A stretch of DNA of 33,126 nucleotides. Source: Deltaproteobacteria bacterium. GTDB lineage: Bacteria; Myxococcota_A; UBA9042; DTJE01; S145-11. The stretch spans positions 1 to 33,126 of the forward strand of contig WGCQ01000032.1 of assembly GCA_015493765.1 (NCBI GenBank), read 5' to 3'. A model generated the notes under the pieces. The model worked only from the letters and a program-made list of their open reading frames with translations, did not search any database and had not been told where the DNA came from. Made by a program: the position numbers and the translations under genes. Below are positions 4,286-33,126 of this stretch, one piece after another (the first letter of the stretch is position 1; each line of letters starts with the position of its first letter).

Positions 4286-4596
4286 AACACCCTCGAGGTC
4301 GCCTGCGCTCCACGGCTTTCGTTTTCACCGGAATCACACGGTCAACGGCCACGGTCTCGGACTCGGCCACGGTCAACGGTCAACGGCCACTGAAATCTGG
4401 CTTCGGGTATCGGGTCTCGGGACGCAGCCTGCGGCTGCTTCGGGACGGCCCTGTGGGCCTTCGGGAAGGCTCCCGTAGTAACCGGAACCCCCGGCCACGG
4501 TCAACGGTCTCGGACTCGGACACGGCCCACGGTCTCGGCCAACGGCCTCGGCCTCGGCCTCGGACTCGGCCACGGAAAAGACGGGCGGGACGCCCC
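4286..4596. repeat. Mosaic repeat island 2
   Basis: The island opens with ACACCCTCGAG and a CTGCGCTCCACGG module, continues into CGGTCAACGGCCACGG-type degenerate repeats, then an inverted diverged copy of the 120-bp unit of island 1 (about 4388-4490), more degenerate repeats, and closes with a GGAAAAGACGGGCGGGACG module. The TTTCGTTTTCACCGG segment near 4318 recurs inverted near 12590. There is no credible gene between 4194 and 4638. Confidence 0.85.
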
Positions 4597-5819: not shown

Positions 5820-6632
5820 TCAATACTCGCCAAATGAACCCCGCCTGGCCAGGTGTCTGACCACGATGCGTATGCTGTACAGCCCCAGTGGAAACAAGAC
5901 CACTGCCCAGGCACCCAGGAATAACAGGTGACTGCCCAGTTGCAACACGGAATCCCCGAACAGCAGGGAACGGCGCAGACCTTCGACAGCGTGCGTCATG
6001 GGTAAGGCCCAGCTGATCACCTGGAGCCAGTGAGGCAGGGACTGCACAGGATACAGGATTCCACCCAGCAGGAAGGACAGGCCTGCAAACAATGCACTGA
6101 CCGGCTCGGACTGTTTGATGTACAGGGTAATGGCCGCTGACAACAGGCCCATGCCTGAAAATGTCAGCATGGTCAAGAGCACAAAAATTACCACTGAAAG
6201 GTAATTTACAGGACCAAAACGCACGCCAAAAACCAGGCCCAGCAATAAGACTCCAACCGATCGGATCAGCGTTGATATGTATGGATAGGCAGCACTGTAA
6301 AATACGATTTCCACCGGGGATGCCGGTGTCATAAGCATTGCTTCCAGGGTGCCGAGTACCTGGGCAACACGGATATTGCTGGCAAACGTACGCATGGACA
6401 CGAACATGTAGTCCACGAATGCCACTCCAATCAGGGAAAATGTGAAATAATCCGTGTGATACAGGCGTACAGTGGCCGGAGTATGGCCGGACATCATCCT
6501 GCCCACGAAAAACAGGGTAATCATGCCTGACAAAAGTGAGCCTACATCATACAGAAAGCCCACCTTATAGGACCACCGCACCAGAAAATCGCGGCGCAAA
6601 AATGCACCGAACATGCGTAACGCCCGGCTCAT
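5820..6632 (-). CDS. ABC-2 type transporter permease
   Basis: This 270-aa integral membrane protein has about six hydrophobic segments spaced as in ABC-2 permeases of the NodJ/DrrB type. The N-terminus (FLRRDFLVRWSYK) is an amphipathic basic stretch typical of the family before the first transmembrane helix. It overlaps the ATPase gene by 4 nt (ATGA), so the two are translationally coupled and form one exporter: a dimer of this subunit with two ATPase subunits in the inner membrane. The substrate is unknown; relatives export polysaccharides, lipids or drugs. The 131-nt gap to the OmpA-like gene leaves room for a separate promoter there. Confidence 0.88.
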   Translation of the reverse strand: MSRALRMFGAFLRRDFLVRWSYKVGFLYDVGSLLSGMITLFFVGRMMSGHTPATVRLYHTDYFTFSLIGVAFVDYMFVSMRTFASNIRVAQVLGTLEAMLMTPASPVEIVFYSAAYPYISTLIRSVGVLLLGLVFGVRFGPVNYLSVVIFVLLTMLTFSGMGLLSAAITLYIKQSEPVSALFAGLSFLLGGILYPVQSLPHWLQVISWALPMTHAVEGLRRSLLFGDSVLQLGSHLLFLGAWAVVLFPLGLYSIRIVVRHLARRGSFGEY

Positions 6633-7384
6633 TTTCCCCCTTTGAAGCAGTCTTCCAGCAGGGGTTTCATGTCCTTGAAATCGCCATTACCAACGATCCT
6701 CCCCCGGTGGATTACCCAGGTCATGTCCGCAACGTATTCCACCGCATCCATGTCGTGACTGGCCAGGATTACCGTGCGGCCTTCGTGTGCAAGGGATTTT
6801 ATCAAGTCCAGCGTCTTGCGGCGCATGGCCACATCCAATCCACGGGTGACCTCATCGAAAATCAACAGCCTTGGATTGTGAATCAAGGACCTTGCAATGG
6901 ATAGACGCTGTTTCATGCCTGCAGAATACGACCATACAACCTTATCGGCCTTGTCACCCAGTCCGACCCAGTCCAGCAGTTCCGATGCGCGTTCACCTGC
7001 TTCGCGTGCTGTCATGCCGTACAATATTCCGAAAAAGCGCAGGTTTTCGATGCCTGACAACCTCAAGAAAAACGAACGCACCTCCGTTAGCCCGAATCCC
7101 ACCATGGATTTCACTTGCAAAGGGTCCTCGAGCGGGTCTATACCAAACACCCTGATCGAACCGCTGGTCGGCATCAAGAGACCTGCAATCAGTTTCAACA
7201 GTGTGGTTTTTCCTGCGCCATTTGGTCCGATCAATGCGTGTACCTTGCCGGATTCCAGGCTGAGGTTCGCCTCGTCGAGGGCCTGTACGGGCTGCTTGTG
7301 AAAGCGTAGCCTTGCGATGTCCTCGAATCGTAAGGGAGGCTGATAGATTTTTGTAAGGCCTGATGTCTCGACGGCCAGCAACAT
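6629..7384 (-). CDS. ABC transporter ATP-binding protein
   Basis: This ATPase partners the permease that follows. From Met at 7384 it has 251 residues with Walker A GPNGAGKT (53-60), signature YSAGMKQ (153-159), Walker B LLIFDE ending at Glu178 and switch His210. The usual DEPT after Walker B reads DEVT, a mild variant. The start is uncertain. AAGGAGG lies only two bases before the ATG at 7384, so the next codon, TTG, with five-base spacing may be the real start; an ATG at 7417 adds 11 residues with no better ribosome binding site. The insert after the first strand (PPLRFEDIARLRFHKQPVQAL) resembles that of ABC-2 exporters. Confidence 0.9.
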   Translation of the reverse strand: MLLAVETSGLTKIYQPPLRFEDIARLRFHKQPVQALDEANLSLESGKVHALIGPNGAGKTTLLKLIAGLLMPTSGSIRVFGIDPLEDPLQVKSMVGFGLTEVRSFFLRLSGIENLRFFGILYGMTAREAGERASELLDWVGLGDKADKVVWSYSAGMKQRLSIARSLIHNPRLLIFDEVTRGLDVAMRRKTLDLIKSLAHEGRTVILASHDMDAVEYVADMTWVIHRGRIVGNGDFKDMKPLLEDCFKGGK

Positions 7385-7510
7385 TACCTCCTTCTTGACT
7401 AAGGATACCCGGTCCAAGTTTGCGCCTAAATGTCAACCGGAAAACCATCGCCGTCTTTGGCTGCGAAAATATAACAGATCAAGGGCATAGGGTCCACCTG
7501 GTCAAGTAAT

Positions 7511-7767
7511 CCCAAATCACCTGTCAAATTTGAGGACAAAGGGCACTGAAAGTGCTTCAGATACGCGGAATTAAGCCTGTTTGAGCGCAGGCGTAATAGC
7601 GGTACGTGGTTCTGCACATCCTGCGGATGCTTACGTATGCCCCTCCGTGGCAATACTTAAACAACGACGAGGCAGATGGACCGCGTGCGGCGCCTTGCCT
7701 AAGGCCGCAGGCCGTGACAACGAGCCGTCAGGCGAAGTTTCACTGCCGAATTTAGTCAGGTAATTTG
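7511..7767. mobile_element. MITE-like element with CCCAAATTACC-type inverted tips
   Basis: The left tip begins CCCAAATCACCTGTCAAATT. The right tip, read on the minus strand from 7767, begins CAAATTACCTGACTAAATT. Aligned by eye, the tips agree at about 17 of 21 positions. The left 60 bp (TTTGAGGACAAAGGGC, then CAGATACGCGGA) is homologous to 19575-19625 and in part to 31768-31815. The interior has short frames (for example 7581-7763) that match nothing I recognise. It fills most of the 518-bp gap between two divergent genes. It could instead be the remnant of a larger insertion sequence. Confidence 0.55.
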
Positions 7768-12492: not shown

Positions 12493-12925
12493 TAACCATA
12501 TCCGTGGCCGTGGCCGTGCCGTTGGCCGTGGCCGTGGCCGTTGACCGAGACCGTGGCCGTGGCCGTTGGCCGTGACCGTGTGATACCGGTGAAAACGAAA
12601 GCCGTGGAGCGCAGGCGGCCTCCTGGGATCGCCGGCATCTTGCCGGCCTTTTCCGTGGCCGTGACCGAGACCGTGGCCGTGGAGACTGTCTCATGGTTAA
12701 TATCTATTTAGCAGTAAGCTAAATATTGCTATACTTGCGTCCAGATATGAGCTTTTTGCCATCAAATATCTAAAAGCCTTAGATTATCTTAAACCATAGG
12801 CTAATTTATCTGAACTTTTGTGAAACTTGGACTGCATATCTTTGACCGGCTTACTGCTAAATAGATATTAACCATGAGACAGTCTCCGTGACCGTTGGCC
12901 GTGTGGAGTGCAGGCCGTACGGAGG
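12493..12925. repeat. Mosaic repeat island 3 (interrupted by an inserted element)
   Basis: Degenerate CCGTGGCCGTTGACCG repeats run from 12493 to 12680 and resume at 12888. They include a GAAAACGAAAGCCGTGGAGC module (inverse of island 2) and a CCTGGGATCGCCGGCATC module shared with 19283 and 33077. The 207-bp element at 12681-12887 splits the array. Together with the repeats at 12934-13052 it accounts for essentially all of the 616-bp gap between ybeY and the SPFH gene; I see no gene in it. Confidence 0.85.
12681..12887. mobile_element. 207-bp element with perfect 39-bp terminal inverted repeats
   Basis: Positions 12681-12719 and 12849-12887 are exact reverse complements over 39 bases. They begin GGAGACTGTCTCATGG and end CAGTAAGC. 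The 129-bp interior is AT-rich and has no credible gene. If the repeat is taken as 38 bp starting GAGACTG, both sides are flanked by CGTG, consistent with a 4-bp target duplication. Deleting the element and one CGTG rejoins the surrounding CCGTGG array without a scar. This fits a miniature inverted-repeat transposable element needing a transposase encoded elsewhere. As RNA it would form a very long hairpin. Confidence 0.8.
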
Positions 12926-12933
12926 CTATTGAA

Positions 12934-13004
12934 AAAGTCGTTATATTACACAACACGCAATTTGTCTTGTAATGTAATGCCCTGAATTTACAGAATATTC
13001 GTAG
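12934..13004. repeat. Dispersed repeat with GTCGTTATATTACACAA (copy 1)
   Basis: It begins AAAGTCGTTATATTACACAA and ends TGAATTTACAGAATATTC. A second, diverged copy with the same order of blocks lies at 27902-27972 next to the Fur-family gene. No gene function is evident in either. Confidence 0.65.
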
Positions 13005-13007
13005 GAA

Positions 13008-13052
13008 CGGGTTCCAAACCCGCCCTGAAATTGCTATCAAATCAACACCCTC
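13008..13052. repeat. 45-bp repeat, left arm flanking the SPFH/NfeD operon
   Basis: The block starts CGGGTTCCAAACCC and ends ATCAAATCAACACCCTC, stopping exactly at the stop codon of the SPFH gene. An inverted copy with a few differences lies at 14630-14675, beyond the other end of the operon. A partial copy is at 19195-19214. Confidence 0.7.
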
Positions 13053-14675: not shown

Positions 14676-14712
14676 CCATACTGTAATGTATCTAAATCCA
14701 CACCTCCGCCCA

Positions 14713-14823
14713 CACGGCCAACGGTCACGGTCAACGGTCACGGCCACGGCCAACGGTCACGGCCAACGGTCACGGCCAACGGTCACGGCCAACGGTCACG
14801 GCCAACGGTCACGGCCAACGGCT
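14713..14823. repeat. Mosaic repeat island 4: 13-bp tandem array upstream of valS
   Basis: Degenerate CGGTCA/CGGCCAA repeats resolve here into five perfect, back-to-back copies of GGCCAACGGTCAC (14748-14812) plus a partial sixth. Perfect copies suggest recent expansion by slippage. The array ends about 20 bp before the -35 box of the predicted valS promoter. The rest of the 392-bp divergent gap holds the repeats at 14567 and 14630 and no gene. Confidence 0.9.
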
Positions 14824-14841
14824 AATTCGGGTTTTGCCCCC

Positions 14842-19194: not shown

Positions 19195-19556
19195 GAGGGT
19201 GTTGATTTGATGGATTTAGTGATGAATCCGTAAATTTGTGTGTTTTGCAACGCCTTGAAATACAAAGATAAGTCAAGATGCCGTCTGGAAGCCGGCGATC
19301 CCAGGGTGGACTTTACACACCCTCGAGGCCTCCTGCGCTCCACGCGGCTAACGCCCTCGGTCCACGGCCACGGCCTCGGTCTCGGCCAACGGTCTCGGCC
19401 AACGGCCACGGCCAACGGTCACGGAAAGGCGGGCGGGACACCCGCGAAACAAGCAGGCGAGGCCGCCTGTGCTCCACACGGCTAACGGCCTCGGTCAACG
19501 GCCACGGCCTCGGTCACGGAAAGGCGGGCGGGACGCCTGCGCTCCACGCGGTCACT
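19195..19556. repeat. Mosaic repeat island 5
   Basis: Module order on the plus strand is: GAGGGTGTTGATTTGATGG; a GAAATACAAAGAT block; CCGGCGATCCCAGGG; ACACCCTCGAGGCCTCCTGC with GCTCCACG; degenerate CGGYCA repeats; GGAAAGGCGGGCGGGACACC; CAGGCGAGGCCGCCTG; more CGGYCA repeats; a second GGAAAGGCGGGCGGGACGCC. From the GAAATACAAAG block on, the same order appears on the minus strand of island 6. No gene is present between 19155 and 19693. Confidence 0.88.
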
Positions 19557-19560
19557 GCAG

Positions 19561-19692
19561 CCCAAAATAAACTGTCAAATTTGAGGATAAAGGGCGCTGA
19601 AAATGGTTCAGATACGCGGAGTTGCGCCTGTTTTCTGCGTACGTTCGCACCTGCTTGTGACCCGGGCGGCTCCTGAGGACACGTAATTTGGG
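19561..19692. repeat. Short element with CCCAAA-type inverted tips
   Basis: The left end (CCCAAAATAAACTGTCAAAT, then TTGAGGATAAAGGGCGCTGA and CAGATACGCGGA) is homologous to the left end of the element at 7511. The right end read on the minus strand starts CCCAAATTACGTGTCC. The right interiors of the two elements do not match. It stops two bases short of the stop codon of the 183-aa protein gene. Confidence 0.5.
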
Positions 19693-27901: not shown

Positions 27902-27972
27902 AAAGTCGTTATATTACACAAAAGATATTTAGTCCTGTGTCGTAACATATTGAATTTACACAATATTAGTAG
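27902..27972. repeat. Dispersed repeat with GTCGTTATATTACACAA (copy 2)
   Basis: Second copy of the repeat at 12934-13004. It starts AAAGTCGTTATATTACACAA and ends TGAATTTACACAATATTAG, in the same orientation. It follows a GAGGGTGTG tag at 27891. Confidence 0.65.
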
Positions 27973-27990
27973 AGACTGATTCTAATCCCG

Positions 27991-28017
27991 TCCTCAAATT
28001 TGGTAGGTAATTTGGGG
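27991..28017 (-). repeat. Tip of the CCCAAATTACC dispersed repeat
   Basis: On the minus strand this reads CCCCAAATTACCTACCAAAT then TTGAGGA, matching the left tip of the element at 7511 including the TTTGAGGA extension. It lies just upstream of the palindrome controlling the Fur-family gene. Confidence 0.6.
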
Positions 28018-28028
28018 TAATTTCGGTC

Positions 28029-28057
28029 TTGCAATTCGATTGCAAAAAGACTATCTT
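28029..28057 (+). promoter_or_regulatory. Palindromic operator and promoter of the Fur-family operon
   Basis: TTGCAATTCGATTGCAA (28029-28045) is a perfect 7-3-7 palindrome. Its left half supplies TTGCAA as a -35 box, and TATCTT (28052-28057) follows after 17 nt as a -10 box. A repressor bound to the palindrome would block RNA polymerase. The likely binder is the Fur-family protein encoded next, but this is inferred from position. Confidence 0.6.
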
Positions 28058-28074
28058 GCGTTTTGGAGGTTTGC

Positions 28075-28521
28075 ATGGAGACTGCAAAAATCTTACATTC
28101 CGTTGGCCTGCGCAGTACTCAGGCCAGGCAGGTTGTATTGCAATTTCTTCTGTCCACTGGACAGCCGCTATCTCACCAGGAACTGGAGAAACAGCCGGCA
28201 TTGGAGCATATTGACCGTGTTACGATCTACCGTACACTGGAAAGCCTGCACAAGGCAGGGCTTGTACGCCGCATACGGGGTCTGGACGGGGTATGGCGTT
28301 TTTGTGCGGTGCCGCAAAAATCCGTTGGATGCCCTGGAAACCACCCACATTTTTTGTGTGTATCCTGCGGCCGTATGACTTGCCTGAAGGGCCAGGAGAT
28401 GCCCTGGGTTGACGTACCTGATGGCGCCACTGTCCTGGGCAAGCAGTTGCTGGTGTATGGACTGTGCCCTGATTGCGCCGCGCAGGGGAAAGGCGCTCCG
28501 TCGCTGGACTGGGAGTCGTGA
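28075..28521 (+). CDS. Fur-family transcriptional regulator (Zur-like)
   Basis: This 148-aa protein has a winged helix domain (about 10-75, recognition helix DRVTIYRTLESL) and a dimerisation domain with two CxxC pairs, Cys95/98 and Cys131/134, forming the structural zinc site. The regulatory segment NHPHFLCVSCG (89-99) has fewer histidines than typical HHxHF motifs, so the sensed metal cannot be named; zinc is plausible, iron, manganese or peroxide possible. GGAGG five bases before the ATG at 28075 supports this start. It is the first gene of an overlapping operon for two membrane proteins and a TonB receptor, so it probably represses a metal or metal-complex uptake system and itself. Confidence 0.9.
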   Translation: METAKILHSVGLRSTQARQVVLQFLLSTGQPLSHQELEKQPALEHIDRVTIYRTLESLHKAGLVRRIRGLDGVWRFCAVPQKSVGCPGNHPHFLCVSCGRMTCLKGQEMPWVDVPDGATVLGKQLLVYGLCPDCAAQGKGAPSLDWES

Positions 28522-29174
28522 TGGCAACAAGGACCACGGGTGCCGGTTTGCTTGCACCTGGTACGAAATCCGAAAAGAAAGACCTGTTTTATGCGTTTGC
28601 CGCCGCATTCGGTGCCCTGTGGGGTACGATCGAGATTACCCTGGGCGCATTCCTGCATACGTTGAGGCTCCCTTTTGCCGGTATCCTGTTGTCCGCACTG
28701 GCAGCCGCAATACTTGTGGGCGAAAGGCAATTACTGCCACGTCGGGGACTGAGTCTTGCCACCGGGGTTGTGGCCGCCATGTGCAAATCCATATCACCGG
28801 GAGGCATCATACTGAGCCCCATGATTGCCATCATCTTTGAATCCGTGGCCGTTGAGATTGCATTGTCAATCGCACCTCGTACCGCCTTTGCATCGGCCCT
28901 GAGTGGTGCCCTGTGTACGGCCTGGTCCGCATTCCAGGGTATCCTGTTTCAGTACATCTTTTACGGCAAGGGTGTGATAGACCTCTACGTGGCATTGCTT
29001 CACAAGACAACCGGATGGTTGGGTATTTCCGCCAGTGCGGGATGGTGGGCCTTGTGGGTGCTGTTGTTTGTAATCGTGGGTGTTGGTGCTGCTGGAGGCA
29101 TTGCGGGCAGGCAAATCGGCAGGCAGGCCGGGGCCAGGCTGGAATCCGCAGCATCCCAGGGGATGGCGGCATGA
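28521..29174 (+). CDS. Small polytopic membrane protein, ECF transporter S-component-like
   Basis: This 217-aa protein has five or six hydrophobic segments. The layout (FGALWGTIEITLGAFLHTL, then LLSALAAAILVG, SPGGIILSPMIAIIFESVAVEI, then two more spans) resembles substrate-binding S components of energy-coupling factor transporters. It lacks the Met-His N-terminus that CbiM and NikM need for cobalt or nickel, so it is not a plain CbiM. The ATG shares one base with the fur stop (TGATG) and GGGAG lies five bases upstream. The C-terminus overlaps the next gene by 4 nt. The substrate is unknown; regulation by a Fur-family protein and linkage to a TonB receptor suggest a metal or metal chelate. 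Confidence 0.6.
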   Translation: MATRTTGAGLLAPGTKSEKKDLFYAFAAAFGALWGTIEITLGAFLHTLRLPFAGILLSALAAAILVGERQLLPRRGLSLATGVVAAMCKSISPGGIILSPMIAIIFESVAVEIALSIAPRTAFASALSGALCTAWSAFQGILFQYIFYGKGVIDLYVALLHKTTGWLGISASAGWWALWVLLFVIVGVGAAGGIAGRQIGRQAGARLESAASQGMAA

Positions 29175-29776
29175 CCCTGCGACACCGGCACAAGATGCTG
29201 GGAACCCTGGCCCTGCTGTGTATTGGCCTCCAGGTGAAGGGCACGCTTGTCATGGCAGGTCTTGCGTTGACCTTGTGGTTATCCGGGCTCGTCCTGTTTG
29301 ACCGCACCAGTTTGAAACGGTTCTGGATGCCGCGTTTCTGGCTGTTCAGCATCCTGCTGGCTGTGGGCAGCGGGTTGCTGCTGGGTAAAACGGATATCCA
29401 CTTACTGGGGCTCGGATTTTCCTTGGCAGGATTGAATGCTGGCGCACTCATGGTCCTGCGAGGGGCATTCGTGTTCGCCCTTACGTCCTGGGCCAGCAGG
29501 AACATTGATTATTTGGCGCTACAAAAGGTGGCCGCCAGGCTCGGCATCTCCCGCCTGGCAGCCGCTGTGCCAGTGGCAATGCATCTGTTGCCAGAATTGC
29601 AAACCGTGGTATCCAGGCACCTAACCGAGGACAAAAAACACAAGATCAGCATACATGAAACAGCGGTGGCGTTGTTTTGTTATACCGCGACACTGGCCAT
29701 GGACATGTCATTGAATACCGAGGCCGGTTACAGGATGAAAATACCAAGAAAGGGTGATGACAGGCATTGGGATTAG
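29171..29776 (+). CDS. Membrane protein, possibly a divergent ECF T component
   Basis: This 201-aa protein has about four hydrophobic segments in its first 120 residues and a C-terminal cytoplasmic part. The order of features (ALMVLRGAFVFALTSWASRN, then LQKVAARLGISRLAAAVPVAM and HLLPELQTV) recalls CbiQ/EcfT proteins, where a short helix and an Arg-containing motif contact the ATPase, but the classic Ala-Arg-Gly coupling motifs are not clear. It is coupled to the S-like gene (ATGA overlap) and overlaps the TonB receptor gene by 20 nt. No ATPase gene is present in the operon, so a shared ATPase encoded elsewhere is required if this is an ECF transporter. I rejected an ATG at 28913, which would run through the S-like gene. 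Confidence 0.5.
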   Translation: MTLRHRHKMLGTLALLCIGLQVKGTLVMAGLALTLWLSGLVLFDRTSLKRFWMPRFWLFSILLAVGSGLLLGKTDIHLLGLGFSLAGLNAGALMVLRGAFVFALTSWASRNIDYLALQKVAARLGISRLAAAVPVAMHLLPELQTVVSRHLTEDKKHKISIHETAVALFCYTATLAMDMSLNTEAGYRMKIPRKGDDRHWD

Positions 29777-31793
29777 ACGAAATCTGTACGCCGGATTATG
29801 TGCAGTGGTTCTGGCGTTCCTGCCGGTTTCGCAGACGGCATGGGCGAAACATGCGCAGGCGAAACACCACAAAAAAAACTTGAAGGGCTCGGAGTCCCGT
29901 ATCTACGAGTTGCCTGGCGTGGTAATACATGAAAGGGAAGGCAAGCGCAGGCGCAATATAAACAGGATAGACCGGGACGAACTGGTTCGATGGGATGCAA
30001 AAAGCGTGGCCGACGCACTGGGGCTCCTGCCCGCCTTGCAAGTCACCACGGGCAGACGGGGGGAATACACGTTTTACCTGCGCGGGTTCGACCAGCGCCA
30101 GGTCAAGGTGTTGATCGACGGTGCGCCTGCTTACGTCCCTTACGACGGGCAATTGGACCTTAACATGGTGCCCTCGGAGATAGTTGACCATGTAACGGTG
30201 GTGAATGGACCTGGTTCCGTTTTATACGGACCTGACGGGCTGGGTGGGGTGATCAATATTGTGACTAGGAAGCCCGGTAATGGGCCTGCGGCCGAGGTGA
30301 TGCTGGAAAAGGGCAGGGCAGGTGGATTGCGGTTACACGGGTTTCACACGTATCGTACAGGGCCTGTGGCCTGGTTGGTGCACGGCGGGCTGGAACGTAG
30401 CCAGGGCTTCTTCCTGTCATCCTCGTTCAAACCGACACGCAGCGAGGATGGCGGGCTACGCAATAACAGTGACAAGGGGGCATACGACCTGGGTACAGGC
30501 GTTAGGGTTCACCTTGCCAAGGGCCACGAACTGCTTGCAAGGGCCAACTATATCAAGGCGAACCGTGGGGTGCCGCCCAGTACAACAGATACCAGGTTGA
30601 GATTCTGGCGCTTTACGGACTGGGAATACTCGAATTTTTCCCTGGGGCATCATGGTCGGTACAGTAACGCCTTGGACATGGATGAATTGCTGTACGGTGC
30701 CTTGTTTGATAACCTGTTGGACAGTTTCGATAACGCCGACTATACCACACAGACCACAAAAAAGGCGTTTCATTCGTGGTACCATGACCGCAGCGTGGGC
30801 GGCAGGATTCGACTCCGTTATTCGTGGGTAAAAACGCCATGGGGCCCAACTCTTTTCAGGCTGTGGTTGTCCAGCCAGTACGATTACCACGGTGAAACCT
30901 GGAAGACAAATGGTACAAGGACCTATCACCGTATGCTGATCACCGTGGGACCCGAGGTGCAGGCGCGTTTTTCCAGGCGATGGCTCATGCTGGCGGGGGT
31001 GCAGGCTGACGTGGAGGTGCCAGGTCAGGGCCAGGATGTCAGGCTTGGACTCGGCCCTATGCTGTCGGTCCGGTTCCGTCCTGTCGAACGCATGGCATTG
31101 CAGGTTACCGTAGCCCGGCGTACCCGATTCCCTACGCTGCGCGAACGTTTTTCAGGGGCACTGGGCGTCAGGATACCTGACCCGGGCCTGCATCCGGAAC
31201 ATGCATGGCATTTTGGGTTGGATTATTCATGGCGGCCGTTGCGTATGTTGAATCTACAGGTGTCGGCATTTGATGCAGAGGTTGGAGACCTGATAGAGGA
31301 TGTCCCCCTGGGCAACGGCAAGGACCAGTTGCAGAACATCGGCAAGGCTCGGATGCTGGGGGTGTCCACGTATTTCGAAATCAGACCGTGGCATTGGCTG
31401 TATTTTAATGCCGGCTACACGTTTTTGCTCGCCCGACGGACGGACAGGATGCAAAATGCCCGATTGCAGTACAGGCCGGCACACAAGGCAGTCTTTAACC
31501 TGGTTGCGAGGCCCGGGACCTGGATTAGTGCCTCCATGTGCCTGGTCATTGTCGGTCCTCGACCGTACCAGGACCCTGAGACTTTGAAGTGGGGCAGGCT
31601 TGGTACGTACTACGTGTGGAATGCGAGGGTGGAATTCAGGCCTGTATCCACGGTCAGTTTGTGGATTGCGGCACAAAACATGCTTGACATGAATTATCAA
31701 ACGCAATACGGTTTTCCGGCCTCGGGCTGGCAGGTGTGGGTGGGGTTGCGAGCGGCATATCCGCGATTGTCAAATTTGAGGACAAGGTACTGA
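29757..31793 (+). CDS. TonB-dependent outer-membrane receptor
   Basis: This 678-aa protein has a signal peptide (1-30, ending TAWA), a short His/Lys-rich stretch (KHAQAKHHKK, 31-40), a possible TonB box (ELPGVVIHE, 51-59), a plug domain (about 65-180: RDELVRWDAKSVADAL, then FYLRGFDQRQVKVLIDG and GPGSVLYGPDGLGGVINIVTR) and a beta-barrel. It imports a ligand across the outer membrane with TonB energy. Operon context suggests a metal or chelate passed on to the ECF-like proteins. The barrel plausibly ends at VWVGLRAAY; the last residues (SNLRTRY) are encoded by a dispersed repeat shared with 7521 and 19572, so the C-terminus seems altered by an insertion. A GTG one codon upstream is an alternative start. 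Confidence 0.92.
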   Translation: MTGIGIRRNLYAGLCAVVLAFLPVSQTAWAKHAQAKHHKKNLKGSESRIYELPGVVIHEREGKRRRNINRIDRDELVRWDAKSVADALGLLPALQVTTGRRGEYTFYLRGFDQRQVKVLIDGAPAYVPYDGQLDLNMVPSEIVDHVTVVNGPGSVLYGPDGLGGVINIVTRKPGNGPAAEVMLEKGRAGGLRLHGFHTYRTGPVAWLVHGGLERSQGFFLSSSFKPTRSEDGGLRNNSDKGAYDLGTGVRVHLAKGHELLARANYIKANRGVPPSTTDTRLRFWRFTDWEYSNFSLGHHGRYSNALDMDELLYGALFDNLLDSFDNADYTTQTTKKAFHSWYHDRSVGGRIRLRYSWVKTPWGPTLFRLWLSSQYDYHGETWKTNGTRTYHRMLITVGPEVQARFSRRWLMLAGVQADVEVPGQGQDVRLGLGPMLSVRFRPVERMALQVTVARRTRFPTLRERFSGALGVRIPDPGLHPEHAWHFGLDYSWRPLRMLNLQVSAFDAEVGDLIEDVPLGNGKDQLQNIGKARMLGVSTYFEIRPWHWLYFNAGYTFLLARRTDRMQNARLQYRPAHKAVFNLVARPGTWISASMCLVIVGPRPYQDPETLKWGRLGTYYVWNARVEFRPVSTVSLWIAAQNMLDMNYQTQYGFPASGWQVWVGLRAAYPRLSNLRTRY

Positions 31794-31815
31794 ATGTGGT
31801 TCAGGTGCAAGGAAG
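31768..31815 (+). repeat. Dispersed repeat fragment across the TonB receptor stop and the mnmA leader
   Basis: TGTCAAATTTGAGGACAAGG matches 7522 and 19573, and the similarity continues with gaps through CTGAATGTGGTTCAGGTGCA and AGGAA. It encodes the final residues and stop of the receptor gene and the AAGGA that serves as mnmA ribosome binding site. Confidence 0.65.
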
Positions 31816-31822
31816 TTCCTTT

Positions 31823-32917
31823 ATGACGCAGACACGAAAATACCGGGTTGCAGTGGCCATGAGCGGCGGCGTGGATTCCTCGGTGACCGCCGTGCTATTG
31901 AAGAGTCAGGGCTTCGATTGCTTTGGCGTAACCATGTTGACAGCCAGCCGGGACATACCTGCGGACAAGGGAAAGCGAGTGTGCTATGGCCTTGATCAGC
32001 GGCGGGATGTGGAGGACGCCGCGGCACAGGCAGAGGCCCTACGGATTCCACATTTCGTGATCGACCTGCGGGAAGCGTTCGAAACACAGGTGATCGATTA
32101 CTTCAAACGGGAATACCTTGCGGGCCGTACCCCCAATCCGTGCGTCAGGTGCAATGAAACCATCAAATTTGACTCCTTGATCCGGGAGACAAGGCGTGTG
32201 GCAGGTGAATTCGACATGCTGGCCACAGGTCATTTTTGCCGTGTGCAGCACCTGGATGGGGCCGGGCGATGGGCCTTGTTGCGTGGGCAGGACCAGGCCC
32301 ATGACCAGAGTTATTTTTTGTATCGCCTGGGCCAGGAAGTGTTGTCCCGGGTGATGTTTCCGCTGGCTGAAATGGACAAGGCACAGGTTCGTGAATTGGC
32401 GATGCGGTTTGGCCTGAAATCCGCACATCGTCCCAAGAGCGTGGATTTTGTCGTGCCCAGGACGTTTCCGGTCCTGTTCGGGAAGCCCAGGCCAGGGCCG
32501 ATCAAGGACCTGGAGGGCAGGGTGGTGGGAAAACACCAAGGCATCGAGCGTTTTACCATTGGACAGCGCCACGGGATCGGAGTGGCATCCGGCGGACGAC
32601 TTTACGTTATCGCATTGGAGCCTGAAACGAATACCGTTGTGGTCGGGCCACGTGAGGCATTGATGTTCAAGGGTTTGATGGTTGCCGGGGTGAATTGGGT
32701 GTCCATGGCCTGCCCACGGCGACCCCTGGATGTCCTTGTGCAGATCCGCCTGAACCAGCAGCCGGCCCGGGCCAGGGTCCAGCCCATTGGTTGCGACCGG
32801 GTCAGGGTTGAATTTAACAAGCCCGTGTTTGCTGTGGCACCTGGACAGTCCGCTGTCTTCTATGACGGGGCCATGGTCCTGGGCGGAGGTGTGATAGAAC
32901 GGGGAATACGGGGGTGA
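31823..32917 (+). CDS. mnmA: tRNA 2-thiouridine synthase MnmA, lacking the usual second cysteine
   Basis: This 364-aa protein is the ATP-dependent enzyme that thiolates U34 of tRNA-Lys, -Glu and -Gln. It has the PP-loop SGGVDS (14-19), NPCVRCNETIKF (105-116, Cys107 and Cys110), ATGHF (134-138), FTIGQRHGIG and a C-terminal beta-barrel. In E. coli the catalytic or cluster set includes a second cysteine in a DSxGICF-type block. Here that block reads RPKSVDFVVP (203-212) with no cysteine and appears one residue short. The CxxC at 107-110 may compensate. ATG 31823 has AAGGA nine bases upstream. It starts 29 nt after the TonB receptor gene and may be cotranscribed with it. Confidence 0.93.
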   Translation: MTQTRKYRVAVAMSGGVDSSVTAVLLKSQGFDCFGVTMLTASRDIPADKGKRVCYGLDQRRDVEDAAAQAEALRIPHFVIDLREAFETQVIDYFKREYLAGRTPNPCVRCNETIKFDSLIRETRRVAGEFDMLATGHFCRVQHLDGAGRWALLRGQDQAHDQSYFLYRLGQEVLSRVMFPLAEMDKAQVRELAMRFGLKSAHRPKSVDFVVPRTFPVLFGKPRPGPIKDLEGRVVGKHQGIERFTIGQRHGIGVASGGRLYVIALEPETNTVVVGPREALMFKGLMVAGVNWVSMACPRRPLDVLVQIRLNQQPARARVQPIGCDRVRVEFNKPVFAVAPGQSAVFYDGAMVLGGGVIERGIRG

Positions 32918-33126
32918 CCGTTGACCGAGACCGTGGCCGTTGACCGTGGAGCGCAGGCGGCCTCGCCTGCCTGTACCGCGGGCGTCCCGCCCGCCTTTGG
33001 TTGACCGAGACCGTAGGCCGAGACCGTGGCCGTTGACCGTGGAGGGCAGGCTTCCAGAGGGTGTTACAAAGTCCCCCCTGGGATCGCCGGCGTCAGCCGG
33101 CATCTTGAATTGTCTTTGTGTTTCAA
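32914..33126. repeat. Mosaic repeat island 6
   Basis: Read on the minus strand from 33126 the module order is: TGAAACACAAAGA block; CCGGCGATCCCAGG; ACACCCTCTGGAAGCC; degenerate CGGYCA repeats; AAAGGCGGGCGGGACGCCCG; CAGGCGAGGCCGCCTG; more CGGYCA repeats. This is the same order as 19254-19505 on the plus strand, so the two islands share one ancestor. The window ends inside it. Confidence 0.88.

Follow-up and report, generated by a model that had tools for sequence, protein, structure and literature searches.

The question raised by this locus is what a pair of ECF-like membrane proteins carries, and by what means, when its operon contains no ATPase gene. The locus lies in a 33,126-nt stretch of contig WGCQ01000032.1 (hereafter the window) from the 3.57-Mb assembly of a deltaproteobacterium (GCA_015493765.1), our statements about which rest on family searches and pattern searches. 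In the window, a palindrome is followed by a Fur-family gene, genes for an S-like and a T-like protein, and a gene for a TonB receptor, with consecutive genes overlapping (Table 1). The gene after the operon is mnmA, and the ABC ATPase encoded at 6629-7417 lies away from the operon, together with an ABC-2-like permease. On the reading we favour, to which we give about an even chance, the operon specifies an importer that spans both membranes and brings in finished molybdenum cofactor (Moco) or molybdopterin, as an ECF variant that has lost its ABC motor.

Table 1. Operon features and their positions in the window.
Feature	Position	Strand	Properties
Operator-like palindrome TTGCAATTCGATTGCAA, probable (predicted) site of the Fur-like regulator	28029..28045	.	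core TGCAA-N5-TTGCA
Fur-family regulator	28075..28521	+	148 aa; PF01475, E 7e-10
S-component-like membrane protein, presumed substrate binder	28521..29174	+	217 aa; Foldseek match 5edl; 1-nt overlap with Fur-like ORF
EcfT/CbiQ-like T-component	29171..29776	+	201 aa; Foldseek matches 7nnu_D, 5x3x_Q; 4-nt overlap with S-like ORF
TonB-dependent outer-membrane receptor	about 29754..31793	+	679 aa; PF07715 plug, E 6e-22; alternative start ATG 29757; ~20-nt overlap with T-like ORF

Operon layout and membrane protein folds

The elements described in an earlier note on this DNA, a palindrome and four overlapping genes with no ATPase among them, are all present. The note also set the palindrome over a promoter. 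The palindrome, which has perfect 7-bp arms and a 3-nt spacer, does lie 30 bp upstream of the Fur ATG; a consensus promoter scan gave no sigma-70-type match around it, so that its promoter position is unproven.

Repeats are found near the operon and elsewhere in the window. A 99-nt element (27902-28000) just upstream of the operon has a 75% alike copy at intergenic positions 12934-13032, and at 31768-31800, across the end of the TonB receptor gene, lies a short repeat (GTCAAATTTGAGGACAAGG...) with further copies at 7523, at 19574 and on several other contigs. Between genes, short repeats (for example CGGTCACGGCCAA) form arrays at 4334-4564, 12505-12627, 14691-14840, 19340-19562 and 32916-33051, and a perfect 39-nt inverted repeat (12681-12719 / 12849-12887) has its arms 129 nt apart.

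Searches of Pfam, NCBIfam and PDB sequences gave no useful match for the S and T of the window, and structure prediction and relatives were therefore required. The S of the window did not match solved S-components by sequence profile, a pooled Pfam scan of its family returned weak matches only (Trep_Strep 0.011; ABC_cobalt 1.8), and a search of its own genome with the CbiQ profile found nothing, the divergent T included. AF2 models built from family alignments were more informative. For the S-like protein (pLDDT 91), the top Foldseek match in the PDB is the S-component 5edl, with a probability of 1.00, TM scores of 0.57/0.61 and a weak E of 0.02; TmRibU was also matched (0.82). For the T-like protein (pLDDT 87), it is the EcfT chain 7nnu_D (probability 1.00, weak E of 0.01), with CbiQ (5x3x_Q) lower in the list, and T proteins of the same family from two Chloroflexi loci (L127, L130) exceed the cut-off of the CbiQ model (PF02361). 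Residues E38 and P51 are invariant among the 49 sequences of the S family. On these models, we are fairly sure that the S-T pair has an ECF-like fold. The identities first proposed for both proteins are thereby upheld, and the profile searches that had been suggested as a check succeeded in part, with CbiQ matched by the T of some relatives and no family matched by the S and T of the window.

The S gene was found in 24 of 284 genomes of the phylum, and a GTDB scan with the S alignment recovered 47 loci. Most of these are of Myxococcota type, the other S-bearing groups being Chloroflexi, Oligoflexia, Actinomycetota, Calditrichaeota, Bacteroidetes and Phycisphaerae. The relatives are nearly all metagenome assemblies, with genes called by a simple ORF finder, and the genomes are related, which makes several of the p-values below optimistic.

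ABC ATPases, the coupling motif and THEP1

No EcfA-type ATPase was found with TIGR04520 in the operon or in the assembly, where the best match reaches 155 of the 315 bits needed; the 20 matches to PF00005 in this genome were classed one by one only in part. The TIGR04520 cut-off was exceeded in three Chloroflexi only. At seven loci, from Chloroflexi, Actinomycetota and Phycisphaerae, a double ABC ATPase lies within about 1.8 kb of S, and this division is mirrored in the T protein itself. EcfT coupling motifs are described as Ala-Arg-Gly (PMC11109136); the motif RLRGG or RLRAG is present in 6/6 T proteins of the ABC group and in 0/36 others, the T of the window included (Fisher 2e-7), where one of the six (L129) comes from a 3-kb contig with no ABC gene visible and was placed with its Chloroflexi relatives by judgement, and two loci with an ABC gene (L126, L128) lie outside the T set scored. 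The T proteins of L116 and L124, which have degenerate ABC genes, are also without RLRGG.

In Myxococcota relatives, T is commonly fused to, or adjoins, a THEP1-type P-loop NTPase (PF03266; E 3e-8 to 5e-18 in four T-linked relatives). The Aquifex member of this family (NTPase_1) is a P-loop NTPase that hydrolyses both ATP and GTP (PMC1079890); what sets the module relatives apart from it is the fusion to a T-component. The T of the window has no fused NTPase, and its genome has one unlinked THEP1 gene, of 147 aa and above cut-off, on another contig. A THEP1 match occurs in 18/24 genomes with S and in 9/260 without (p 4e-17), a test that is partly circular because the matched THEP1 is often the domain fused to T. 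Genomes with an unfused T offer a cleaner test and give 6/9 against 9/260 (p 8e-7). In the THEP1 tree, stand-alone proteins from one related family of genomes (f41) fall among those of the module, and the THEP1 of our genome is placed less clearly, on a long branch. The presence of both THEP1 and an ABC ATPase at L127 and L136 argues against THEP1 having just taken the place of the motor. Both the T-linked NTPase of relatives and the lost coupling motif are invisible within the window and were absent from the earlier note.

Two further THEP1 arrangements were observed. Three loci (L095, L096, L103) have a second THEP1-type gene downstream of or overlapping the TonB receptor gene, and at L116 (5423-8001) and L124 (5288-7980) an HTH and PBP_like regulator is fused to THEP1 (Pfam-confirmed in L116), with degenerate ABC-like genes adjoining.

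ECF transporters with a fused double ATPase (YkoEDC-type; Chloroflexi L126, L127, L130) share with the window system the S and T folds, the S-then-T order and a homologous T, which in some cases matches CbiQ. The window system differs in having no ABC ATPase and a T without RLRGG, and in adding a TonB receptor and a Fur-like regulator. Transport by S-fold proteins that have no ABC motor is known from the solitary S-components BtuM and BioY, and the BtuM host lacks EcfT and an ECF-type ATPase (PMC6072759, PMC11109136); unlike these, the window system retains a dedicated T, and its relatives usually have a THEP1 NTPase. In the open-access literature, such transporter parts without the usual ATP motor were not found described for bacteria, and the suggestion of an undescribed class of system is supported.

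Operator, neighbouring genes and the cofactor pathway

The Fur domain of the regulator has two conserved CxxC pairs, and its regulatory ligands deviate: C86, H90, H92 and C103, an unusual set, are invariant in an alignment of eight module- or operator-linked homologues. This agrees with the atypical sensor site remarked on before. The reading of the palindrome as an operator has also gained ground, in that its core is conserved before homologous operons. Across the 3.57-Mb genome, TTGCAAYNNNRTTGCAA has a single match, the palindrome itself, and TTGCAA-N5-TTGCAA would be expected about 0.14 times at the base composition of the window. TGCAA-N5-TTGCA precedes the module operons of L091, L092, L051 and most f41 loci; in the f41 genomes, further copies stand upstream of the regulator gene, of lipoprotein genes from the T-adjacent family, and of genes for TonB receptors and XDH-type molybdoenzymes. 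With at most one mismatch and within 350 bp upstream, the operator is found at 7/16 f41 XDH loci (binomial 6e-13), a p-value that is optimistic because these genomes are related, and that depends on a lead, since the test followed the sighting of a box at one XDH gene and of two more in the site list. The reversed control pattern is rare. No operator was found at the XDH genes of our own genome, which counts against a Moco reading, and none with up to two mismatches near unlinked THEP1 genes. We are fairly sure, from the sites themselves, that this candidate operator is common to the module operons and the regulon; the direction of regulation by the Fur-like protein is one that we infer.

Genes of Moco synthesis recur beside the module. 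The pair moaA-moaC lies upstream of S in L097, L104 and L106, with mobB also in L104; mobA adjoins the module in L107 (by Pfam) and, judging from sequence, probably in L132. A pooled scan of 87 neighbours gave PBP_like 3, XdhC 3, TrmO 3, MobA-like 2 and MOT1 1, which are raw counts rather than identified genes; the three PBP_like hits were assigned to L095, L096 and L103 by equal length, an assignment backed for L095 alone. The neighbour names ZnuA/ZnuB, PadR, ModE-like and Rnf were read from sequence, without a profile match.

The genomes themselves suggest a need for the cofactor. Our genome encodes two XDH Mo subunits, and it and at least 15 module-bearing relatives have molybdenum hydroxylases with no detectable moaC. 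Among 46 S-bearing genomes searched, a Mo-hydroxylase domain is present in 39 and MoaC was not found in 28, with our genome and the majority of S-bearing Myxococcota among those lacking a match; the 18/46 with MoaC count against a Moco reading, as do seven S-bearing genomes (G037, G090, G287, G288, G292, G304, G306) with no XDH match. A concatenated query for MoaA, MoaC, MoaE and MoeA found none of these in our genome, in G070, G011, G040, G267 and G249, or in six f41 genomes, and in G035 and G101 MoeA was the only one of the four to be found; the f41 genomes G104 and G199 were checked for MoaC alone. Twelve relatives without S, picked non-randomly from genomes listed earlier, served for comparison: the pathway is present in four with XDH, G110 has XDH without the pathway, and the rest have no XDH match. 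Moa genes are missing more often with S than without (p 0.014, with few genomes in the latter group). G110 has XDH genes, no Moa genes and no S match, which counts against a Moco reading, but this genome is 82% complete.

It is rather unlikely, though the most favoured of the other accounts, that the operon takes up a transition-metal cation or chelate (zinc, nickel or cobalt), with a Fur-like sensor, a TonB receptor importing the chelate and the S-T pair moving the metal. In its favour are the membership of the regulator in the Fur family and its conserved Cys and His residues, the conserved His46 and acidic residues of S, and the ZnuA/ZnuB-like pair, read from sequence, directly upstream of the L092 operon. 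The operator of the window also equals the consensus tTGCaa-N5-ttGCAA of Nur, the Fur-family nickel-responsive regulator of Streptomyces (PMC3919588); the regulon here comprises the uptake module and Mo enzymes and points to Mo. A metal would leave unexplained the moaA, moaC, mobB, mobA, XdhC and MOT1 neighbours, the XDH genes of the f41 regulon and the molybdoenzymes without a pathway. Zinc or nickel uptake had been the leading idea and gave way once Moco genes were seen beside the module and MoaC was found missing. Of the metal or metal-chelate uptake first proposed, the idea of a transporter stands and a free metal has become less likely, the suggested survey of conserved neighbours having pointed away from it; Moco would still fall under the term "metal-chelate".

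Uptake of molybdate or tungstate, free or chelator-bound, for Mo/W enzymes is unlikely. PBP_like regulators adjoin the module (one in L116, and three in the set of neighbours), the molybdate transporter MOT1 is a neighbour, and L137 has an HTH that by eye is ModE-like, but molybdate rather than the pterin cofactor would be useless to the at least 16 S-bearing genomes with Mo-hydroxylases in which MoaC was undetected. Quite unlikely is the import of a purine or another pterin for XDH-type enzymes: the operator common to XDH operons and the 8-oxoguanine-deaminase gene in our genome's XDH operon would fit, but the Moco-synthesis neighbours and missing pathway would go unexplained and another route to Moco would be required. 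Corrinoid or heme uptake through the ECF-like pair is highly improbable: the receptor does resemble BtuB structures best, has TonB-B12 (TIGR01779) as its best NCBIfam match (E 2e-35), and a Cys-Pro in the regulator may resemble heme regulatory motifs, but the receptor match is mainly confined to the plug and far under the model cut-off (123 of the 600 bits needed), and none of the corresponding genes were noticed adjoining the module. Vitamin B12 uptake, raised by the BtuB-like plug, was set aside; the receptor does not reach the cut-off of the full-length BtuB model.

A proposed route for the cofactor and its meaning

The neighbours, the regulon and the missing molybdopterin-synthesis genes thus favour Moco over a free metal, and we are moderately sure of a Mo-cofactor role for the module. 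In the proposed route, the TonB receptor, a homolog of which adjoins the module in many Myxococcota loci, would carry Moco or molybdopterin over the outer membrane; in many relatives an adjoining small lipoprotein, for which no Pfam or PDB relative was found, would probably pass the cofactor on. At the inner membrane, S would bind the cofactor, and S and T together would move it inward in an ECF-like manner. The pair would no longer use an EcfA-type ABC motor; instead, an ATP-dependent step may come from the THEP1-type NTPase (part of the T protein in most relatives, unlinked here), or this NTPase may accept the cofactor. The Fur-like protein would control the set through TGCAA-N5-TTGCA. We are unsure of the exact cargo of the S-T pair and of the role of THEP1, both of which are presumed.

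Free Moco and molybdopterin are described as exceedingly unstable (PMC9370521), which counts against a Moco reading, as the environmental source would be in question. External mature Moco is acquired from the diet and used by Caenorhabditis elegans (PMC9793310), an animal case unconnected with TonB or ECF components. In the open-access literature searched, no Moco importer was reported for bacteria. We put forward tentatively, as somewhat short of an even prospect, the fuller picture of a bacterial Moco importer spanning both membranes, with an ABC-less S-T pair and a THEP1-type NTPase, a Fur-like regulator governing molybdoenzymes as well, and hosts that are natural Moco auxotrophs.

This hypothesis makes the uptake of Moco by cells, and its route, directly testable in bacteria. 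If it is true, THEP1 would acquire a role, the ECF scaffold would be shown to function without an ABC motor, and Moco would be a shared, vitamin-like nutrient of anaerobic communities.
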